64,000 bases of DNA from Bradyrhizobium sp. dw_78 (GTDB lineage: Bacteria > Pseudomonadota > Alphaproteobacteria > Rhizobiales > Xanthobacteraceae). Where the stretch lies: assembly GCF_018449525.1 (NCBI RefSeq), contig NZ_JAAVUS010000004.1, forward strand, positions 248,001 through 312,000, given 5' to 3'. The position numbers and the translations under genes are program-made. Positions 48,565 through 57,718 of this stretch are shown here, piece after piece (position 1 is the stretch's first letter; the number at the start of each line of letters is the position of its first letter). The notes under the pieces were generated by a model. It was not told the origin of the DNA, searched no databases, and saw only the letters and a program-made list of their open reading frames with translations.

Positions 48565-49685
48565 GCGCGAGTGCTCCCCTGATTTGCAGTTGTGTGCAGA
48601 CGCGTCGACAGCGGTCCCGCGCCAGTTTCGATGGCAAGGCGCGCCCCGCTCGCGGCATCGAACACATGCCCAGCCGAAGCATCCCAAACGAGACCTACCG
48701 TGGCGCCTACCGCCGGAGCACTGCCGCCCCGCGTTCGGGCCATGATCGGTCGCTCCCCGATCATGCAGGTGACAAGGGCTTCGGCGCCGAGATATTCGAC
48801 CGCCGTGACAGCCACATGAAATCGGCCGGGCCGGTTCGCGATATCCACCGTCACGTCTTCCGGCCGCAGCCCGAGCACGCGGCCACGCCCGGAGCCTAGG
48901 AAAAGCGCGGGTCCCGTGGTGCCGGCAACCACCGCGCCAGAGGGACCGTCATCGAGATCGAGCAAGCTCATCGGCGCGGCGCCGACGAAACGGGCGGTGA
49001 ACAAAGTCGCCGGCCGCTCGTAGAGGTCGGCCGGCGTGCCGTTCTGCTCGATGCGGCCGGCCCGCATCAGGATGACGCGGTCGGCCATGCTCATGGCTTC
49101 GGTCTGGTCATGCGTCACGTAGATCATGGTGATACCGAGCCGTTGCTGTAGAGCGCGAATCTCGCGGCGCAACTCCTGCCGCAACTGGGCGTCCAGATTG
49201 GACAACGGCTCGTCGAGCAGGCAGACCGGCGCCTCGGCAATCAGCGCCCGGCCAAGCGCGACGCGTTGCTGCTGCCCGCCGGAAAGCTGAGCAGGCTTGC
49301 GCCGCAACAACGCTTCCAGCCCGAGCAGCGCCGCGATCTTGTCAAGCCGCCGTGCCATCTCCTGCCTCGGAATGCCACGCACCGACAGACCGAAGGTGAT
49401 GTTGTCGGCGACATCAAGATGCGGGAACAGCGCATAGGACTGAAACACCATGGCGACGCCGCGCGCGGAACCGGTCAGGCCGCGAACATCGCGGCCTTCG
49501 ATCTCGATCGAGCCGGCCGCCGGCTCCTCAAGCCCGGCGATCAGGCGCAGCATGGTCGACTTGCCGCATCCGGACGGCCCGAGCAAGACGACGAGATCGC
49601 CCTTCCTGACGGCGAACGAGACGTCATCGACTGCGAGCGTTTCACCCCACGTCTTGGTCACCGATCTGACGTCAACGCTGATCAT
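48561..49685 (-). CDS. ugpC: ABC transporter ATP-binding protein (UgpC-like)
   Basis: A 374-residue ATPase of the MalK/UgpC class. Walker A is GPSGCGKST, the ABC signature LSGGQQQRV, Walker B CLLDEPLSNLD, and the switch His lies in YVTHDQTEAM. The last 130 residues form the regulatory OB-like domain (LGLRPEDV). It is the first gene of the operon, and a candidate Pho box lies about 50 bases upstream of its ATG. Confidence 0.87.
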   Translation of the reverse strand: MISVDVRSVTKTWGETLAVDDVSFAVRKGDLVVLLGPSGCGKSTMLRLIAGLEEPAAGSIEIEGRDVRGLTGSARGVAMVFQSYALFPHLDVADNITFGLSVRGIPRQEMARRLDKIAALLGLEALLRRKPAQLSGGQQQRVALGRALIAEAPVCLLDEPLSNLDAQLRQELRREIRALQQRLGITMIYVTHDQTEAMSMADRVILMRAGRIEQNGTPADLYERPATLFTARFVGAAPMSLLDLDDGPSGAVVAGTTGPALFLGSGRGRVLGLRPEDVTVDIANRPGRFHVAVTAVEYLGAEALVTCMIGERPIMARTRGGSAPAVGATVGLVWDASAGHVFDAASGARLAIETGAGPLSTRLHTTANQGSTRA

Positions 49686-49737
49686 GATTTCGATCCAGTG
49701 GCCTGGCAAACGCCGCTGCGCCTCGATAAAAACGCCT

Positions 49738-49755
49738 TGTGAACGTTATGTGACA
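49738..49755 (-). promoter_or_regulatory. Candidate Pho box upstream of the ugp-like operon
   Basis: On the minus strand the 18 bases read TGTCACATAACGTTCACA (from 49755 to 49738). Including the preceding G, 13 of 18 positions agree with the CTGTCATATAACTGTCAT PhoB pattern, with two half-sites 11 bases apart. ugp genes for glycerol-phosphate uptake are classical PhoB targets, which supports the site and the operon assignment mutually. Confidence 0.5.
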
Positions 49756-49956
49756 CCGGTCTGCGTTCGTCCCGGAGAAACGCTCGCCTGCGAGCAAGCC
49801 GCGGCTGCACCGTCATTGCGGAAATCCGACCGCGGCATTCTATCCCAAATTCACGGGATAGCACCTTATCCGCTGGGGGCTTGACCAGCCTTCAGAACGA
49901 CGGCGGTCCATGCCGCGGCCGTCGGGCTTTCCGGCTTTGTTCTGAATGGTGACAAT

Positions 49957-50029
49957 TTGGCGCGGCGCCAAAACCAGATATCACAACGCACGATGCTGCA
50001 GGTAAACCTACGTTACGTAAACCTACGTT
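49957..50029. repeat. Palindrome and tandem repeat downstream of the YkgJ gene
   Basis: TTGGCGC-G-GCGCCAA (49957-49971) is a perfect palindrome that may help end the YkgJ transcript. GTAAACCTACGTT occurs twice, at 50002-50014 and 50017-50029; the second copy contains the YkgJ stop codon. The rest of the 49756-50022 spacer shows nothing recognisable. Confidence 0.5.
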
Positions 50030-50742
50030 GCGAGCAGGGCATCAAATTGATCCCCCGCTCCCGTCCAGTCGAACTCGATCGCGGCCTGAGCGAGGCTATC
50101 GCTGCCGACGAGCCACGCCGCGTCGCGGCCCTTGCGGTCGAGAGCGAGCGCAAGACCATGATTCATCTCATAAAGGCCCCAGGAAAGCCCAGCGCTCCGC
50201 AAGGCCGATTGCAGCGCGCTCTGCATCAATCCCCGCAGCGCCAGATGCGGTTCGGAAAGCGGGACCTCGACGTCCCTGCCCGCTACAGCGCGGGCGCAGG
50301 CTTGGCGGTCGAAGGAGGCAAGCCCGCGACAGGCAAGCGGACGAACCGGATGAACGATGCAGACACCACGGACAATGAAGGGACAAGGCTTGCGCAGCGC
50401 CAACCTTTCGGTCTCGCTTAATCCACGCGTGGAGCGGTTTACGTGGGCGATACGCCGTCCAAGTCCGATCGCCGCGCCACTTGGCGCGGCATCGATTTGC
50501 CGCACGTAATCCGCCAACAGGAAGATTTCCGGCGCGGTAACCGTCACCCGCAAACTACAGCAGGAGGGGCATCCTTTTTGACAGGCTAGCGGCGGCAGAT
50601 GCTGGGTTTGCAGGCCGATATTCGCCTCGAACAACTCGAATACGTAGTCGATCAGCATTTCGAATGTGTACGGCGATCTCGGGTTCTCCGCCAGAATGCG
50701 GACGAACATCGCATGCAAATCCCTGAAGCCGCTTCTGTTCAC
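50023..50742 (-). CDS. YkgJ family cysteine-cluster protein
   Basis: A 239-residue protein with the CxxxCxxCC signature (C54, C58, C61, C62) of the YkgJ/UPF0153 zinc- or iron-binding family, plus further cysteines in CPFIVRGVCIVHPVRPLACRG. No signal peptide or membrane helix is clear. The function is unknown; the cluster suggests a metal or iron-sulfur site. It starts 7 bases after a 92-residue hypothetical gene, likely in one operon preceded by a perfect FNR/FixK box. Confidence 0.83.
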   Translation of the reverse strand: MNRSGFRDLHAMFVRILAENPRSPYTFEMLIDYVFELFEANIGLQTQHLPPLACQKGCPSCCSLRVTVTAPEIFLLADYVRQIDAAPSGAAIGLGRRIAHVNRSTRGLSETERLALRKPCPFIVRGVCIVHPVRPLACRGLASFDRQACARAVAGRDVEVPLSEPHLALRGLMQSALQSALRSAGLSWGLYEMNHGLALALDRKGRDAAWLVGSDSLAQAAIEFDWTGAGDQFDALLAT

Positions 50743-50749
50743 CTTCGCG

Positions 50750-51028
50750 TCAGCCCTGCACGCCCTCTAAGATCGTCTCAAAGCTCGCACGCGGAATACG
50801 GAAGAAGCCGCGTCCGCCGGCAAGCACTTGATAATGCGCCGACGCTCCATCGAGCAAACGTTTGAACCACTCGTTCTCGCTCAAATTGCCGGGCTTTTCG
50901 CCGATCGAAGAAATCTCGGCATTCGGATGGAAGCGGACATGCACGAGCACCTCGTCTACCACCGCGGGATTCTGCCGCTCCACGTCGTCTTCAACGGGCT
51001 GAATCCGAGCCAATACTTCCTTCGCCAT
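50750..51028 (-). CDS. Hypothetical protein, 92 residues
   Basis: A small soluble protein I do not recognise. It contains VDEVLVHVRFHPNAEISSIGEKP and LSENEWFKRLLDGASAHYQVLAGGRGFFRIPR, which suggests an alpha/beta fold with no Cys and no signal peptide. It heads the operon with the YkgJ gene and lies about 105 bases downstream of the FNR/FixK-type box. An oxygen-limitation role is inferred from that box only. Confidence 0.62.
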   Translation of the reverse strand: MAKEVLARIQPVEDDVERQNPAVVDEVLVHVRFHPNAEISSIGEKPGNLSENEWFKRLLDGASAHYQVLAGGRGFFRIPRASFETILEGVQG

Positions 51029-51134
51029 CTTAAACTTCTCCTGCTCAGGCTGAGTATCTTCTCACAGCCATTACCGACAAACATCGTCGCGTCTCGGCGT
51101 ATGTCATCGAATATATCGAAGCGCGATGCGTTCA

Positions 51135-51148
51135 TTGATCTGGATCAA
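51135..51148. promoter_or_regulatory. Perfect FNR/FixK box (TTGAT-N4-ATCAA)
   Basis: TTGATCTGGATCAA is a perfect palindromic FNR/FixK-type site. In Bradyrhizobium FixK2 activates microaerobic genes through such boxes. It lies 107 bases upstream of the 92-residue gene that starts the YkgJ operon. No plus-strand gene begins within 1.3 kb, so the minus operon is the probable target. Confidence 0.65.
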
Positions 51149-51514
51149 TGCTGTTTCTATTCAAGGAATTCCCGAGGCATTCGGGGTTCTGATACAATTG
51201 AAGCCGATAAGGCTCTCAACACCGCCCCACCAGAGTGGCAGACCATGGCCAGATCGGAAAAGCGAACTTCTGATTGCCGTCTCAAAGGCCGGCTTCAGGC
51301 CTCGCTTCGAAGCTAGCGGCTCGGCGGCTTGCCCAAGACTTTATTGATATGGTGACGAAACTGCCGGGCTCTCATAGCCAAGGTCGAGCGTGATGTTCGG
51401 CTGGGCCGATCCGAAGCTGCCAGCGCGTTACATCGCGCAGGCGAGCGGGAAAAATTCGGCGTGCATTTCCTTGAACAAGGGGCCCGAGAACAAGGGGCCT
51501 GACTGAGCGGCAGT
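51149..51514. other. Intergenic region beyond the FNR/FixK box
   Basis: 366 bases between the FNR/FixK box and the FmdB-like gene. A plus-strand open frame at 51126-51347 overlaps the box and shows no family pattern. Nothing else was recognised. Confidence 0.35.
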
Positions 51515-51742
51515 TCAGCGCCGGCGCTCAGAGCGGCTGAAGTTGCTCAGATGCCCTTCGCTGCCGGCTTGGGCGCGGGCCGCCCTGGCAAGATCGCGGC
51601 TGGTTCCCGGCGCCGCCACGCGCGACATCAGGCGGTCGAGCTTGTTGCCTCCACAGGTGGGACAGAGCGGCGTGTCGCCGGACTGGACAAGGAGCTCGAA
51701 ATCCTTGTCGCATTTCGCACAATGGTAGCTGTAGAGCGGCAA
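51515..51742 (-). CDS. FmdB family zinc-ribbon protein
   Basis: A 75-residue protein with a single zinc ribbon: C8-x-x-C11 in YHCAKC and C27-x-x-C30 in LCPTC, the FmdB regulatory-protein pattern. The tail is Arg/Ser rich (FSRSERRR). The start is TTG at 51742, preceded by AGGGGAGA seven bases upstream, giving the usual LPLYSYHC beginning. The minus strand is open for another 73 codons without similarity. FmdB-like proteins are linked to formamidase and amidase genes in some bacteria; none is next to it here. Confidence 0.75.
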   Translation of the reverse strand: MPLYSYHCAKCDKDFELLVQSGDTPLCPTCGGNKLDRLMSRVAAPGTSRDLARAARAQAGSEGHLSNFSRSERRR

Positions 51743-52307
51743 GCGCTTGTCTCCCCTGGATTTTACGGCCACCGCGCGAGCCTCTCGCAGCCCGACCGCT
51801 GGTGCCGGACCTTGCCCAGCAAAAACCAGACCAGAACGCCGGCGCATTCGGGCCGCTTCGTCCGACCAGCGCCCGCACAAGATGCGCGCAAAGCGCGCCA
51901 TGAATTTTCTGCCAGACACATCGCCCATGCTGACCGAGACATGGCGCGTCCGCTGGCGCAACAGCCCAGCGTGACTGGAAATATAGATCGCGGATTACTT
52001 GGGGCCGCTCATCGATCCGAAATATGACGTCGGATGAGGAAGATAACGTCCGGGCTACTCACATAAGAAAATCAGTTGATCATCCTCATCGCATCGATGA
52101 TGACGATGATGGCTCCAATGATTCTGGTCATGTCATGATGCGAGGCGCGCAGCCTTCCTGAGACCGGCATTGCTAGCGCTCGATCTGTGACTTCGCGTTT
52201 CAGAGCCGGCTATCGGCAACCCAGCGTCAGCCAAGGACTTCCGTCCTCCACAACATCTGCCTAACGGTGGCACCTTGCGGAAGCGAAGCGGGTTGAAACG
52301 GCCACTA
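51743..52307. other. Spacer with possible transposase remnant
   Basis: 565 bases without an intact gene. Plus-strand codons near 52220-52250 read a GNPASAKDF-like string reminiscent of the RNRRLAKDF motif at the end of IS5-family transposases, but the reading frame does not continue. The rest is a low-complexity ATCATC/GATGATG run and unassigned sequence. Confidence 0.3.
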
Positions 52308-52395
52308 TAGCGTTTTCGAGCGAAGTGGATTCCGGTTCGCGTGAAGAAAAAGCGTCAAAACAACGAGGTGAGCCCCGTTCGGATTCCATCAGAAC
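52308..52395 (+). repeat. Dispersed intergenic repeat, copy D
   Basis: TAGCGTTTTCGAGCGAAGTGG, then CCGGTTCGCGTGAAGAAA and an imperfect version of the palindrome (TCGGATTCCATCAGAACC), ending AGCTCTAG. It is more diverged than copies A and B. Confidence 0.75.
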
Positions 52396-52496
52396 CGAGC
52401 TCTAGTACCGCGCAGACGCCGCGTTGCGCCATTCGACGGGACACAAATTAAAGCTGACATATTACCGTTAGGATCGATGCAGTAGCTTGCTGCAAG

Positions 52497-52513
52497 TTTA
52501 GAAACTTTCGCAA
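52497..52513 (+). promoter_or_regulatory. Irr/ICE-like half site before the imelysin gene
   Basis: TTTAGAA followed after three bases by TTCGCAA resembles a palindromic TTTAGAA/TTCTAAA iron control element with a degenerate right half. It lies just upstream of the imelysin gene, an iron-linked family in other bacteria. Weak evidence on its own. Confidence 0.3.
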
Positions 52514-52520
52514 CGGTGCC

Positions 52521-53399
52521 ATGAGTGCCGGCAAGCGGCATTCGGGGCAACTAGGTATGTTGATGACGCACCGTCATCGCCGTGATTCGGCTCGATGGGC
52601 AATTGCGCTTTCGATCGCATTGGCGGCTACGTTATGCGCAGCACTCGTCGGGCTCGGACCAATCGGCGCCAAGGCCGACACCATCCCCACGGCGACGTTC
52701 GACACTGCGATTGAGCTCTATCGTTCGCGGCTTGTCGAGGACATCGACAAAAGCATTGCAAGCGTGAAGAAGCTGCGCGACAACGTTTCGAGCGGTGACG
52801 TCGTCGCGGCAAAACAGGCTTGGATCGATGCCCGAGCCGGCTGGGAGCGCTCCGAGGTCTTCACCAGCGGCTTTGCCCCCGAACTCGACCGCGAAATCGA
52901 TGCCTGGCCAAACGGCGCCACCGGCTTTCACGCGATCGAAACCAAGCTATTTGGCACCGGCCGGACCGACGTTGAGAGCGAGGTCGACGCATTGCTACAC
53001 AACTTGTCGGACATGGCAGCGACAGCCCGCAACATCACACTGACCTCCCAAGGGTTGTTCGACGGCTTGACCCGGCTGGCTTACGAAGTTGGCGAAAGCA
53101 AACTCGATGGTGGTGAGTCGTACCTTAGCGGAACCTCGATTGACGACATGCGCCACAATGTCGACGGCATTGAACTGGCCTACAGCATGATCTTCGCCCC
53201 CGCGATTGAAAGTCGCGACTGGGATCACCACGCTCAAGTTCTGCACCTGATCACCGAGCTGAAAACCATGCTGGCCGAGCGTGACCTTCGGAAAATAGAC
53301 CAGGAAAGGCTGCGCGCACTTAGCGAGGAGCTCGTTCTCACGTTGCAAATGACAGCTCCCGCGATCGCTCTGGCTCGGCCGACGCTCGAACTTCAATAG
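52521..53399 (+). CDS. Imelysin family (M75, EfeO/IcmP-like) protein
   Basis: A 292-residue exported protein of the imelysin/M75 family, implicated in iron uptake (EfeO, IcmP). An Arg-rich start and hydrophobic stretch (about 26-50) form the export signal ending near GAKA. The HxxE signature is H137-A-I-E140 in GFHAIETKLFG, and the preceding WERSEVFTSGFAPELDREID matches the family core. The first ATG (52521) is close to the iron-box-like element; ATGs at 52557 and 52563 are plausible alternatives. It is followed by a di-heme cytochrome gene. Confidence 0.8.
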   Translation: MSAGKRHSGQLGMLMTHRHRRDSARWAIALSIALAATLCAALVGLGPIGAKADTIPTATFDTAIELYRSRLVEDIDKSIASVKKLRDNVSSGDVVAAKQAWIDARAGWERSEVFTSGFAPELDREIDAWPNGATGFHAIETKLFGTGRTDVESEVDALLHNLSDMAATARNITLTSQGLFDGLTRLAYEVGESKLDGGESYLSGTSIDDMRHNVDGIELAYSMIFAPAIESRDWDHHAQVLHLITELKTMLAERDLRKIDQERLRALSEELVLTLQMTAPAIALARPTLELQ

Positions 53400-53426
53400 G
53401 CCGGTCTTGCTCGGCGGTGAGCTACA

Positions 53427-53526
53427 GCATGATCCAGACCGGGAGGGCCGCGCTAGCGCGGAGATCATGCTCAAACAAAAACAGAGATGGATGACGATAC
53501 GAAGAAAAGTCACCCGGCTCCAGAGG
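53427..53526 (+). repeat. Dispersed repeat, copy F (second module only)
   Basis: GCATGATCC ... GATCATGCTCAAACAAAAA ... GGATGAC ... AAAGTCA, corresponding to the left half of copy C (32201-32308). It separates the imelysin gene from the di-heme cytochrome gene. Confidence 0.7.
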
Positions 53527-53591
53527 CGCCACGCCGTCGCGCGGCACCTCCGACGCAGTAGGAATAACGTGATTCAAGGGCAGGTTCGGTG

Positions 53592-55010
53592 ATGATACGG
53601 CGAGGGTTTTGGGCGATTGCGATAGTGTTCATGGCACTGCAGCCCGGCGAGATCGGCGCTTTCCCGCTTAGCGGCGATCAGACCATCTTGCCGGCGGGGA
53701 CCGAACTCGCCGAGGACTCGTTCTTACGCCCGTCTGAAGTATTCCACTCCGAGACGCGCGGCGGCTTCAAATCCTACATGATCGATCTCGGCGATCTGGC
53801 GTTCAACTCACCGGATATATTGGGCGGCACTGCGGCGCGGGCGGGGATGAGCTGCGGTACCTGTCACGTCAATGGTGCCGGCAATCCGAGGTTATTTATT
53901 CCTGGCATGTCGACCCGGCCGGGAAATTTCGACACAACCGGTCCGCTGTTCAATCCCAAAGCGCACAACGGTGTGCTTGATCCGGTCCGCATCCCTAGCC
54001 TGCGTGGCGAGCGCTTTCTCGCCCCTTACGGCAATGACGGACGCATCGCCTCGCTACGCGACTTCGTCCGCAACGTCATCGTCAACGAGTTCTCCGGTCC
54101 CGAACCATCCCCGACGATTCTCGATGCTTTAGTCGCTTATATCGAGGATATAGATTTCCTGAAGAACCCGAGCCTCGACTCCAACGGCCGGCTGACGGCA
54201 CAATCGAACGCGGCTGAGCGGCGCGGTGAGGCGATTTTTTCCCGGCCATTTCCGCGAGACGCGAGCATGAGCTGCGCTACGTGCCACATCCCATCAGCAG
54301 GATTCGTCGATCACAAGCAGCACGATGTCGGCTCTGGAGGTCTGTTCAAGACGCCAACGCTGCTGAACGCCGATTTTAACGGGCCATACTTTCACGATGC
54401 ACGCTATGACAGATTGGATCAGGCGGTAGCGCATTTCGATCGGCTATTCGAACTCGGGCTGACGCCACAGGATCGTTCCGACCTCATCGCCTATATCACG
54501 GCCGTTGGTGACGGCGTGGTGCCCTTCGACCGCGAGGGCGTGACGGGACAGCTCAAGGAGATCAATGACTTTGCTTCCGTGCTCGATTTCGCCATTCCGG
54601 CCCACGATTCCGCCGTCATCGATCTCGCGGTCAGCACCATTGGCCAGGAGCTCCGCGATCTGACCGAGAAATTCCCGGATCGCCGAGACCCGACCGTAAC
54701 CGATGGTTTGAAGGAGCGCCTCGCCGCGCGCGCGGTGCTGAAGGATGTGGTGATCCGATTCCGGCACATCGGGATTGCGGCAGCGGCGGGTCGTTTCGAC
54801 GAAGCGGAAGCGGAATATAATGTCTATCGTCAGCTGTCCGTCATTGCCTTGCCGACACTGCTGGCGACCGCTCAACAATGGTCGCTCTTCAATCCGGCGG
54901 TTCACAGGGCACACTACACGGCACTGTGGCAAAGACTCCGGCAAACCCAAAAGCCGACGCAAGTTTCGGCTGTGCCGGCCAATGCAGCGACCGAAACCAC
55001 GACCAAATAG
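53592..55010 (+). CDS. Di-heme cytochrome c peroxidase-like protein
   Basis: A 472-residue periplasmic protein with two c-type heme motifs, CGTCH (about residues 88-92) and CATCH (about 228-232), the arrangement of bacterial di-heme peroxidase/MauG relatives. A signal peptide covers the first 24 residues (EIGAFP). The heme ligands of the second motif and the region after PTLLNADFNGPYFHD resemble cytochrome c peroxidases. ATG at 53592 is chosen; a GTG three bases upstream is equally possible. Next to an imelysin gene, as in iron-regulated imelysin operons of other bacteria. Confidence 0.86.
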   Translation: MIRRGFWAIAIVFMALQPGEIGAFPLSGDQTILPAGTELAEDSFLRPSEVFHSETRGGFKSYMIDLGDLAFNSPDILGGTAARAGMSCGTCHVNGAGNPRLFIPGMSTRPGNFDTTGPLFNPKAHNGVLDPVRIPSLRGERFLAPYGNDGRIASLRDFVRNVIVNEFSGPEPSPTILDALVAYIEDIDFLKNPSLDSNGRLTAQSNAAERRGEAIFSRPFPRDASMSCATCHIPSAGFVDHKQHDVGSGGLFKTPTLLNADFNGPYFHDARYDRLDQAVAHFDRLFELGLTPQDRSDLIAYITAVGDGVVPFDREGVTGQLKEINDFASVLDFAIPAHDSAVIDLAVSTIGQELRDLTEKFPDRRDPTVTDGLKERLAARAVLKDVVIRFRHIGIAAAAGRFDEAEAEYNVYRQLSVIALPTLLATAQQWSLFNPAVHRAHYTALWQRLRQTQKPTQVSAVPANAATETTTK

Positions 55011-55705: not shown

Positions 55706-57718
55706 ATGAACCTCTTGAATTTAGGTCGCCGCCAAAACTGGCAGCTGACTACTACCCTCTGCACGTCGGTGTTGACGGGATCGTTGCTTTGCATCGCACC
55801 TGCCGCCATGGGCGGCGCAGTTGATTCGGTCGCGGCGGTGAACACCGCAACTCCGATCAAGCGCGTCATCATCCTGGTCGGCGAGAACCGTGGCTTTGAC
55901 CACACCTTCGCCACCTACACGCCCAAGGGCCAGGGGCAGACCATCAGCAACCTGCTGTCGAAAGGCATCGTCAACGCTGACGGCAGCCCGGGCCCGAACT
56001 ACTCGCTCGCCCAACAATATTCGGTCGCGCCGCAGCCGACTTACTATTTCGGTGCGCCGAATATCGCCAAGACCCCGTACAACAATTCCTCCAACCCGAT
56101 GCCGCAGCCGACCACTGGCGGCGCGCCCTCAGGTCCGAACGCCTTTTATCCTTACGGAGTGGGATACTCCGCGCCGTTCTATGGACCGGACCAGGATTCG
56201 AATTGGAACCTCGAAGCGCAGCTGGTCTCCTCGGAGGATCCCGACATCAAGGCCAGCCAGTTTAATTTGCTGAGCGAGGGGGCGACCAACCTGCCCCAAG
56301 GCGTACTCGACACCCGCATCCCCGGCGCAGGCTCGCTCTCTGGACCTTTCCCCCTCCAGGGACCGAACATCAGCGAGCATGACTACGCTGGCGACATGAC
56401 TCACCGCTTCTTCCAGGCTGCTCAGCAGCAGGATTGCAGCATGGAGAATGCCACCGCCGCCAACCCCACCGGCTGTCTGAACGACCTGTTCCCGTTCACG
56501 GAGCTCGCGACGGACCAGACCTGGGCTCTGGGCAACCCGATGGGCTTCTTCAACATGGCTCAAGGGCAAGTGCCATACTTCAAGAGCCTCGCCGACCGCT
56601 TTACGCTGAGCGACAATTTTCATCAGTCGTTCCTCGGCGGCACCTACCCGAACCACATGATGCTCGTCACCGGCGACGCGCTCTACTGGACCGATGGCAA
56701 AGGCAATGCGACGACTCCGGATCCGAGCTTGGTCGCCAATCCGAATCCGCAGTCGAAACCAACAGATGCGTTTGCGATCAATAACTTCATCAGCGACCAG
56801 AACTTGGTGAACTGCGCCGACACCACCCAGCCGGGTGTGGCACCGATCGTCAATTATCTGACGAGCTTGCCGTACCGCGTAAAATCGAATTGCGAAGCTG
56901 GTCACTACTACCTGATGAACAACTCCAACCCAGGGTATAATGCGAACGGCACCCTAAGCGGCAGTGTTCCGCCGTCGCCGTTGCGCAGCATCGGTGACGA
57001 ACTGAACGAGCATAACCTCACCTGGGCCTGGTTCGGTGCGGGCTTGAAGGACGCCGCCGCGGCGGCGGACTTGAACGAGCAGCCTTATACCGATCCTGCG
57101 CATGCGTGGGGCCAAGTCTATTGCGCGATCTGTAATCCGTTCCAGTACCTGAGTTCAGTCATGAGCGACCCGGCGCAACGGGCCGCACACATGAAGGACA
57201 CTCGTGATCTGATCACCGGTATCCAGACCAACACGTTGCCCTCGGTGTCATTCGGCAAGCCGGACGGCTATTTGGACGGTCACCCGCAATCGTCGAAGAT
57301 CGATCTGTTCGAAGTCTATGTGCAGAACATTCTCGCCGAACTTCAGAAGAACCCGCGCATGCTGGCGGAAACTGCCGTGTTCATCACCTGGGATGAAGCT
57401 GGTGCCGAATACGACTCGGGCTTCGTGCAGCCGATCGACTTCTTCGGCGACGGATCTCGCATTCCGTTGCTGATCCTGTCGCCCTATTCGGCCGGCGGCA
57501 TTGTCCACCACGCCTACGGTGATCATGTATCGCTGATGAAGTTCATCGAGCGCAACTGGTACATGACGCCGGTGACCAACCGTAGCCGTGACAACCTGCC
57601 GAACCCGGTGAGCACTCCGGCCAATCCGTACGTGCCCACCAACATGCCGGCCATTGACGACTTGTTCGATGCGTTCAACTTCAACGTTCCGCCGACGGTG
57701 CCGAACTATCTGCCGTAA
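55706..57718 (+). CDS. Secreted phosphoesterase (phospholipase C / acid phosphatase family)
   Basis: A 670-residue exported enzyme of the PF04185 phosphoesterase family. The signal peptide runs to about residue 35 (AAMGGA). The metal-site motif GENRGFDHTFATY near residue 60 is the ENRxFDxxF signature. FLGGTYPNHMMLVTGD, a TWDEAGAEYDSGF segment and PLLILSPYSAGGIVHHAYGDHVSLMKFIERNW complete the catalytic core. The substrate is either a phospholipid or a phosphate monoester. It lies alone, downstream of an AT-rich promoter region. Confidence 0.87.
   Translation: MNLLNLGRRQNWQLTTTLCTSVLTGSLLCIAPAAMGGAVDSVAAVNTATPIKRVIILVGENRGFDHTFATYTPKGQGQTISNLLSKGIVNADGSPGPNYSLAQQYSVAPQPTYYFGAPNIAKTPYNNSSNPMPQPTTGGAPSGPNAFYPYGVGYSAPFYGPDQDSNWNLEAQLVSSEDPDIKASQFNLLSEGATNLPQGVLDTRIPGAGSLSGPFPLQGPNISEHDYAGDMTHRFFQAAQQQDCSMENATAANPTGCLNDLFPFTELATDQTWALGNPMGFFNMAQGQVPYFKSLADRFTLSDNFHQSFLGGTYPNHMMLVTGDALYWTDGKGNATTPDPSLVANPNPQSKPTDAFAINNFISDQNLVNCADTTQPGVAPIVNYLTSLPYRVKSNCEAGHYYLMNNSNPGYNANGTLSGSVPPSPLRSIGDELNEHNLTWAWFGAGLKDAAAAADLNEQPYTDPAHAWGQVYCAICNPFQYLSSVMSDPAQRAAHMKDTRDLITGIQTNTLPSVSFGKPDGYLDGHPQSSKIDLFEVYVQNILAELQKNPRMLAETAVFITWDEAGAEYDSGFVQPIDFFGDGSRIPLLILSPYSAGGIVHHAYGDHVSLMKFIERNWYMTPVTNRSRDNLPNPVSTPANPYVPTNMPAIDDLFDAFNFNVPPTVPNYLP

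Follow-up and report, generated by a model that had tools for sequence, protein, structure and literature searches.

The FixK/FnrN regulon of Alphaproteobacteria, which takes in the genes for the cbb3 and bd oxidases and hemN, is the closest described control system for the locus reported here. Its operator is printed as TTGA-N6-TCAA for FixK (PMC13327599), and the sites of FixK and FnrN could not be distinguished in a regulon comparison (PMC4999443). The main-text section on FnrN/FixK targets of that comparison names neither of the two protein families described below (Tsoy et al. 2016; PMC4999443), and in the open-licence literature, supplementary gene tables aside, we found no link between YkgJ and FixK. 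On the protein side, the nearest described case is FliB, a flagellin lysine methyltransferase in which a PF03692-like cysteine motif holds an oxygen-sensitive [4Fe-4S] cluster and which has eight conserved cysteines (PMC8598068).

In the window, by which we mean the whole 64,000-nucleotide stretch of DNA that was analysed, a palindrome of the FixK type precedes two closely spaced genes on the minus strand; the whole arrangement spans 50023-51148 and consists of the following features:

51135-51148, no strand assigned: FNR/FixK-type palindrome TTGATCTGGATCAA (TTGA-N6-TCAA), recognised by a pattern scan and by conservation upstream of the orthologous gene
51110-51115, minus strand: possible -10 element TATATT, read from the sequence
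51038-51042, minus strand: probable ribosome-binding site AGGAG, read from the sequence
50750-51028, minus strand: ORF of a 92-aa small protein, which belongs to the box-type branch of its family, the sister branch being nif-linked
50023-50742, minus strand: ORF of a 239-aa YkgJ/CxxCxxCC-like protein with a GTG start, containing CxxxCxxCC followed by C120, C128, C138 and C149

Read on the minus strand, the palindrome is TTGATCCAGATCAA. It is the sole perfect TTGAT-N4-ATCAA site in the window, where 28 matches with up to two mismatches compare with 16.5 +/- 3.9 expected from shuffles. The earlier note had singled out a perfect site of this form before a 92-residue gene coupled to a CxxxCxxCC gene, and both points hold: 106 bases, rather than the 107 given there, separate the box from the ATG of the 92-aa ORF, and the 239-aa ORF starts 7 bases past the stop of its neighbour. 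AGGAG lies 9 bases ahead of the ATG of the 92-aa ORF, and TATATT begins 19 bases past the box, a spacing that would roughly suit a class II activator. A consensus scan detected no sigma-70 promoter pair near the box, and a search of window positions 49000-53000 at Rfam gathering thresholds returned no matches.

Beyond the box, the ORFs that start are all short mechanical ones. The first ORF there to match a family encodes an FmdB-type zinc ribbon; it lies on the minus strand at 51515-51961, with its 3' end towards the box. A box serving a divergent gene was considered and rejected for the window, where no family-matched ORF faces away from it. An oppositely directed ORF does lie upstream in 5 of the 11 genus-mate loci discussed below (L047, L049, L051, L052 and L053) and could share the box there; in L052, the one locus scanned, it is luciferase-like by Pfam. 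Two other features of the surroundings may be recorded. A tandem 15-base repeat, GTAAACCTACGTTAC / GTAAACCTACGTTGC, runs across the 3' end of the YkgJ-like gene (50002-50031). At 52521-55010, a gene for a MauG-like di-haem peroxidase comes after one of the imelysin/EfeO-like M75 type and precedes an acid-phosphatase/phospholipase-C-like gene (55706-57718), and the three together look like an iron- or haem-linked operon.

Orthologues of the YkgJ-like gene, at 59-70% identity, were found in 12 of 264 other genomes of the genus, with at most 10 candidates scored per genome; the searches at the level of family, order, class and phylum covered samples of genomes. In 11 of the 12, the 92-aa gene precedes the YkgJ-like gene and a TTGA-N6-TCAA box lies 184-189 bp from the ATG. 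These 11 genus-mates carry the pair at one common genomic spot, other than that in the window's genome, between genes for an aminotransferase and an alcohol dehydrogenase (as judged by synteny, with Pfam run on L055). Two genomes of another genus likewise have the box ahead of the 92-aa gene. A Xanthobacteraceae MAG (L017, the same record as G398 and counted once) has the pair with a perfect box at 68 bp, G330 (L089) has it with a perfect box at 209 bp, and these two pairs occupy two further genomic contexts. The box is thus kept with the pair in several contexts, which argues that pair and box stay together while their neighbours change. The earlier note had made its proposal depend in part on conservation of the box in close relatives; all 11 genus-mates with the pair have it, and L017 and G330 extend this to other surroundings of the small gene. 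In the twelfth orthologue genome (G191), the YkgJ-like gene has neither small gene nor box adjoining and lies 11 bases behind a gene that reads by eye like a glutathione reductase.

The small gene has a wider distribution, with matches in 62 of 391 genomes family-wide and 13 of 397 order-wide, and its relatives form two branches, a box branch and a sister branch, split with a FastTree support of 0.99. The box is present in 29 of the 31 fetched box-branch copies, being missing in L092 and L100, and in 0 of the 31 fetched sister-branch copies. These counts refer to fetched copies, many further family-wide matches (e.g., G328:C39) lying outside them, and exclude repeat fetches of one place and L004, whose protein equals that of L003. 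Since many of the boxed copies come from close relatives, 29 boxed copies do not amount to 29 independent events; eight or nine distinct genomic contexts are represented among the box-branch copies. By eye, all 29 boxes fit TTGA-N6-TCAA. Their density was counted at 26 loci, one per copy and with L088 and L045 left out, allowing up to one mismatch: 24 boxes fall in the stretches of 330 bp that precede the small gene (8.6 kb in total), compared with 7 in the 380,510 bases elsewhere in the same loci, mostly coding, a density at which 0.16 would be expected upstream. Presence of the box goes with the small gene and not with the YkgJ-like gene. A box tied to the YkgJ family generally was rejected: 29 remote alphaproteobacterial relatives (L139-L167) have none, at up to one mismatch, in the roughly 350 bp upstream. 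Two distant YkgJ relatives within the genus (G073/L031 and G145/L032) have a site with one mismatch.

The YkgJ-like gene is also found apart from the small gene. Among 17 genomes searched, its orthologue is present in all 13 g65 genomes and absent from G312, G533 and G289. None of the g65 orthologues adjoins the small gene, the two lying about 15 kb apart on one contig in G328; in G509 they do adjoin, tail to tail, and the YkgJ-like gene there has no upstream site of its own. A degraded TTG-N8-CAA site lies 123-150 bases upstream of the g65 YkgJ-like gene in nine of nine loci, differing from TTGAT-N4-ATCAA by two mismatches in seven and by one in two. Upstream of the gene, L192-L200 (g65) also carry a block TACGCAGTTTCCC, or a one-base variant of it, and a block of the TTGTTCCATCTCAA type (9/9 loci). 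The former resembles the FixJ motif, quoted as GTACGTAG (PMC13327599), a resemblance that was left unused because the window's genome has no exact TACGYAGTTTCCC.

Eight cysteines (54, 58, 61, 62, 120, 128, 138 and 149) and H166 are invariant in an alignment of eight YkgJ-like sequences that includes the gammaproteobacterium Methylococcus sp. EFPC2. Against the PF03692 model, the window protein scores 19.7 bits and the L052 protein 20.3 bits, the gathering cut-off being 23. The assignment to the YkgJ type in the earlier note therefore stands as to the CxxxCxxCC motif, which is present, and fails as to formal membership at the Pfam cut-off; judged by its sequence, the window protein is a distant YkgJ/CxxCxxCC relative lying under that threshold. 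It is probably an Fe-S or metal protein, and an Fe-S cluster is predicted in it because the related motif of FliB holds [4Fe-4S]. A metal or redox role, as first suggested in the earlier note, would fit both the eight invariant cysteines and the genes beside which the relatives lie (ferredoxin, nif and nifH). The structure model of the protein has a pLDDT of 34, a sequence search of the PDB gave no match to a solved structure, and no relative was found in phages.

For the small protein, Pfam and NCBIfam hold no family. Across 62 sequences, H30, I42, P46, W54, L58, G72, R73, G74 and F76 are invariant and R32, F33, P35, Y66 and R77 nearly so; no column of this alignment has cysteine in 30% or more of the sequences. 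Lacking a conserved cysteine, the small protein is unlikely to hold a cluster itself, and we infer that it may be an adaptor. Its structure is predicted with modest confidence (pLDDT 69) as beta-beta-alpha-beta-beta-alpha; the model has no fold match at E <= 0.001, a PDB sequence search gave no matches and no relative was found in viral contigs. The window's genome also holds a sister copy (L058), which follows a [2Fe-2S] ferredoxin within a nif-type cluster, beside Fer2, LRV_FeS, Fe-S_biosyn and Rieske proteins, on the nifH contig. Of 33 sister loci, 21 have a ferredoxin motif no more than 1.5 kb upstream, a figure that becomes 17 of 31 distinct loci once three matches judged unrelated (L007, L013 and L086) and two duplicate loci are dropped.

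Relatives of both proteins are found near nitrogenase genes. The nif cluster of Methylococcus sp. EFPC2 ends with the YkgJ-like orthologue (43.6% over 97%) and carries in the opposite direction a ferredoxin, a small protein of the sister branch, SIR2 and BolA. The SIR2-family and BolA genes, which come after the small gene on this nif plasmid (L168, 9057-9899 and 8774-9043), would not be expected in a nif operon. In G330, the boxed pair is about 1.7 kb from nifH; the copy L092 of G328 lies near modE and nifH without a box, and by BLAST the same nifH-like neighbour is found beside the boxed L101 of G479. In the family sample, each of the 24 genomes that have a box-branch copy also carries one or more others, and the three further copies that were fetched (from G000, G144 and G312) are all of the sister branch. 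Among the neighbours scanned around the window pair, there is no nif gene. An enrichment of nifH among pair genomes is not clear: matches over the cut-off occur in 10 of the 12 pair genomes of the genus and in 39 of the 60 genomes sampled from it. The link of the pair to nitrogenase is suggestive only. As a separate observation, ten of the 12 pair genomes (G061, G079, G129, G130, G142, G143, G231, G251, G260 and G272) have two extra nifH-like matches of about 196-223 bits, compared with 4 of 60 in the genus sample; these are probably BchL/BchX, and the clade in which the pair is common looks photosynthetic.

The explanation of the whole that we favour, at slightly better than an even chance, is a FixK/FNR-controlled low-oxygen operon for an adaptor and an Fe-S protein that support oxygen-labile Fe-S or nitrogenase-linked chemistry. 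As oxygen falls, a FixK-type Crp/FNR protein would bind the palindrome and presumably switch the operon on. The first product would be a small adaptor without conserved cysteines whose probable task is to dock on an Fe-S electron carrier or assembly partner, or to serve it; this is proposed because the sister family occurs in nif-type clusters, about half of the copies examined standing directly after a [2Fe-2S] ferredoxin. The second product, with eight invariant cysteines, would most likely carry an oxygen-labile Fe-S cluster and, together with the adaptor, could pass electrons to oxygen-sensitive Fe-S enzymes or maintain them, with nitrogenase as the foremost candidate. Taken by itself, a role of the operon in Fe-S or nitrogenase support is plausible, at somewhat below an even chance. 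A fuller scenario is tentative and rather improbable as a whole: an undescribed Fe-S accessory module, composed of the adaptor and the eight-cysteine protein, would have left a nif cluster, entered FixK control and come to support electron delivery or repair for nitrogenase and other oxygen-labile Fe-S enzymes in microoxic growth, with the sister adaptor doing likewise for the nif ferredoxin.

Other readings account for parts of this evidence. The operon could be induced by microoxia and yet encode a general zinc/iron handling or stress pair unconnected with nitrogenase; that its relatives lie among nif genes would then reflect nothing beyond shared ancestry. Pfam describes PF03692 as zinc- or iron-chelating, and such a pair would be at ease with the lack of clear nifH enrichment among pair genomes, with a window copy that has no nif neighbour, with the place of the pair between aminotransferase and alcohol dehydrogenase genes in 11 genus-mates and with the glutathione reductase-like gene (by eye) ahead of the YkgJ-like gene in G191. 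It is harder to reconcile with the repeated nif/nifH linkage in relatives of both proteins and with the further copies held by 24 of 24 box-branch genomes, all three fetched being of the sister branch, and we regard it as unlikely, if a serious contender.

The choice of regulator can be judged from the rest of the genome, which holds 21 perfect TTGAT-N4-ATCAA sites in 6.04 Mb, where arithmetic from base composition gives about one. Its Crp-type HTH matches that exceed the Pfam cut-off number 18, and L119 among them is ArsR-like by eye. FixK-type regulators are present on a reading of L102 and L103, both of which look by eye like FixK proteins, and L103 has a perfect box upstream. The stretch ETVSR in these two proteins is what we take to read TTGAT. 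The other 20 perfect sites are spread over 17 stretches and L103 and L111; 20 flanking ORFs were scanned, a set that stops short of L186, L189 and L190, whose boxes are crossed by longer frames. Genes beside boxes encode acetate kinase, a protoglobin chemoreceptor, cytochrome bd oxidase subunit I, an alcohol dehydrogenase, an AhpC/TSA protein, an ATP-synthase-type subunit and a nitroreductase. Others do not fit, namely genes for an aminotransferase, a PAN-domain protein, a serine carboxypeptidase and an NAD-kinase-like protein, of which those for the carboxypeptidase and the PAN-domain protein are not known for a low-oxygen role, and 6 of the 20 ORFs scanned have no family match. In a further case, a box identical to that of the window stands 81 bases before a NifA-like GAF/sigma-54 activator (G000:C12:119569, L181) on the nifH contig, which suggests that FixK/FNR may directly control nifA in the window strain.

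Regulation of the operon by a FixK/FNR-type low-oxygen system is, on these sequence grounds, very probable. There is a small probability that a different Crp/FNR regulator (NnrR, AadR or an NO sensor) acts at the box, in which case the operon would respond to nitric oxide or anaerobiosis and not to microoxia through FixK. Room for such a regulator is left by the 18 Crp-type HTH matches (one of them ArsR-like), by the boxes near L103, L105 and L111 and by the FixK and FnrN sites that were indistinguishable in the published comparison (PMC4999443), but the sites retain the full TTGA-N6-TCAA form and the box set of the genome takes in several typical low-oxygen genes. Far less probable is that the YkgJ-like protein is a FliB-like [4Fe-4S] methyltransferase with the small protein as its substrate or cofactor protein: the eight conserved cysteines and PF03692-like motif of FliB (PMC8598068) do have a counterpart in the eight invariant cysteines here, but the spacing is CX3CX2CC rather than CX4CX3CC, and solved structures give no sequence match. 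A chance palindrome has next to no probability, since a single perfect site in 64 kb is unremarkable alone, but the box is kept across contexts, and its upstream density (24 vs 0.16 expected) together with the contrast between branches (29/31 vs 0/31) rules chance out in silico.

The favoured low-oxygen operon would give two uncharacterised families a concrete physiological setting, that of low oxygen with relatives beside nitrogenase genes. It also offers a clean contrast within one family, between boxed copies and the unboxed, largely nif-linked sister copies. If the proposed role is true, the pair would represent a missing accessory step for the Fe-S enzymes of diazotrophs near their oxygen limit.

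Set beside known systems, the window protein shares with the YkgJ/CxxCxxCC family (PF03692) the CxxxCxxCC motif and a later CPF...G.C...RP..CR stretch, and its Methylococcus orthologue is annotated as a 'YkgJ family cysteine cluster protein'; it differs in its length of 239 aa, the C-terminal half being longer than in the 85-position model, and in an extra invariant cysteine, C149, beyond the matched stretch. With FliB, it has in common a PF03692-like cysteine motif and the number of conserved cysteines, eight, and it departs from FliB in the motif spacing given above, the two being compared by motif alone. The 92-aa protein resembles the unnamed small protein behind the [2Fe-2S] ferredoxin of nif clusters (38-52% identity over about 60 aa, with an HxRF and GRG-x-FR core), from which it is set apart by the tree: the nif-cluster protein forms its own branch, is unboxed (0/31) and has the ferredoxin upstream in 17 of 31 distinct loci. 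The FixK/FnrN regulon is matched in its operator, in the kind of position that the operator takes, in the presence of FixK-like regulators and in the co-boxed low-oxygen genes; the difference is that the targets in the window operon are two uncharacterised families. The kind of regulon is known, and the parts of this new member are uncharacterised.
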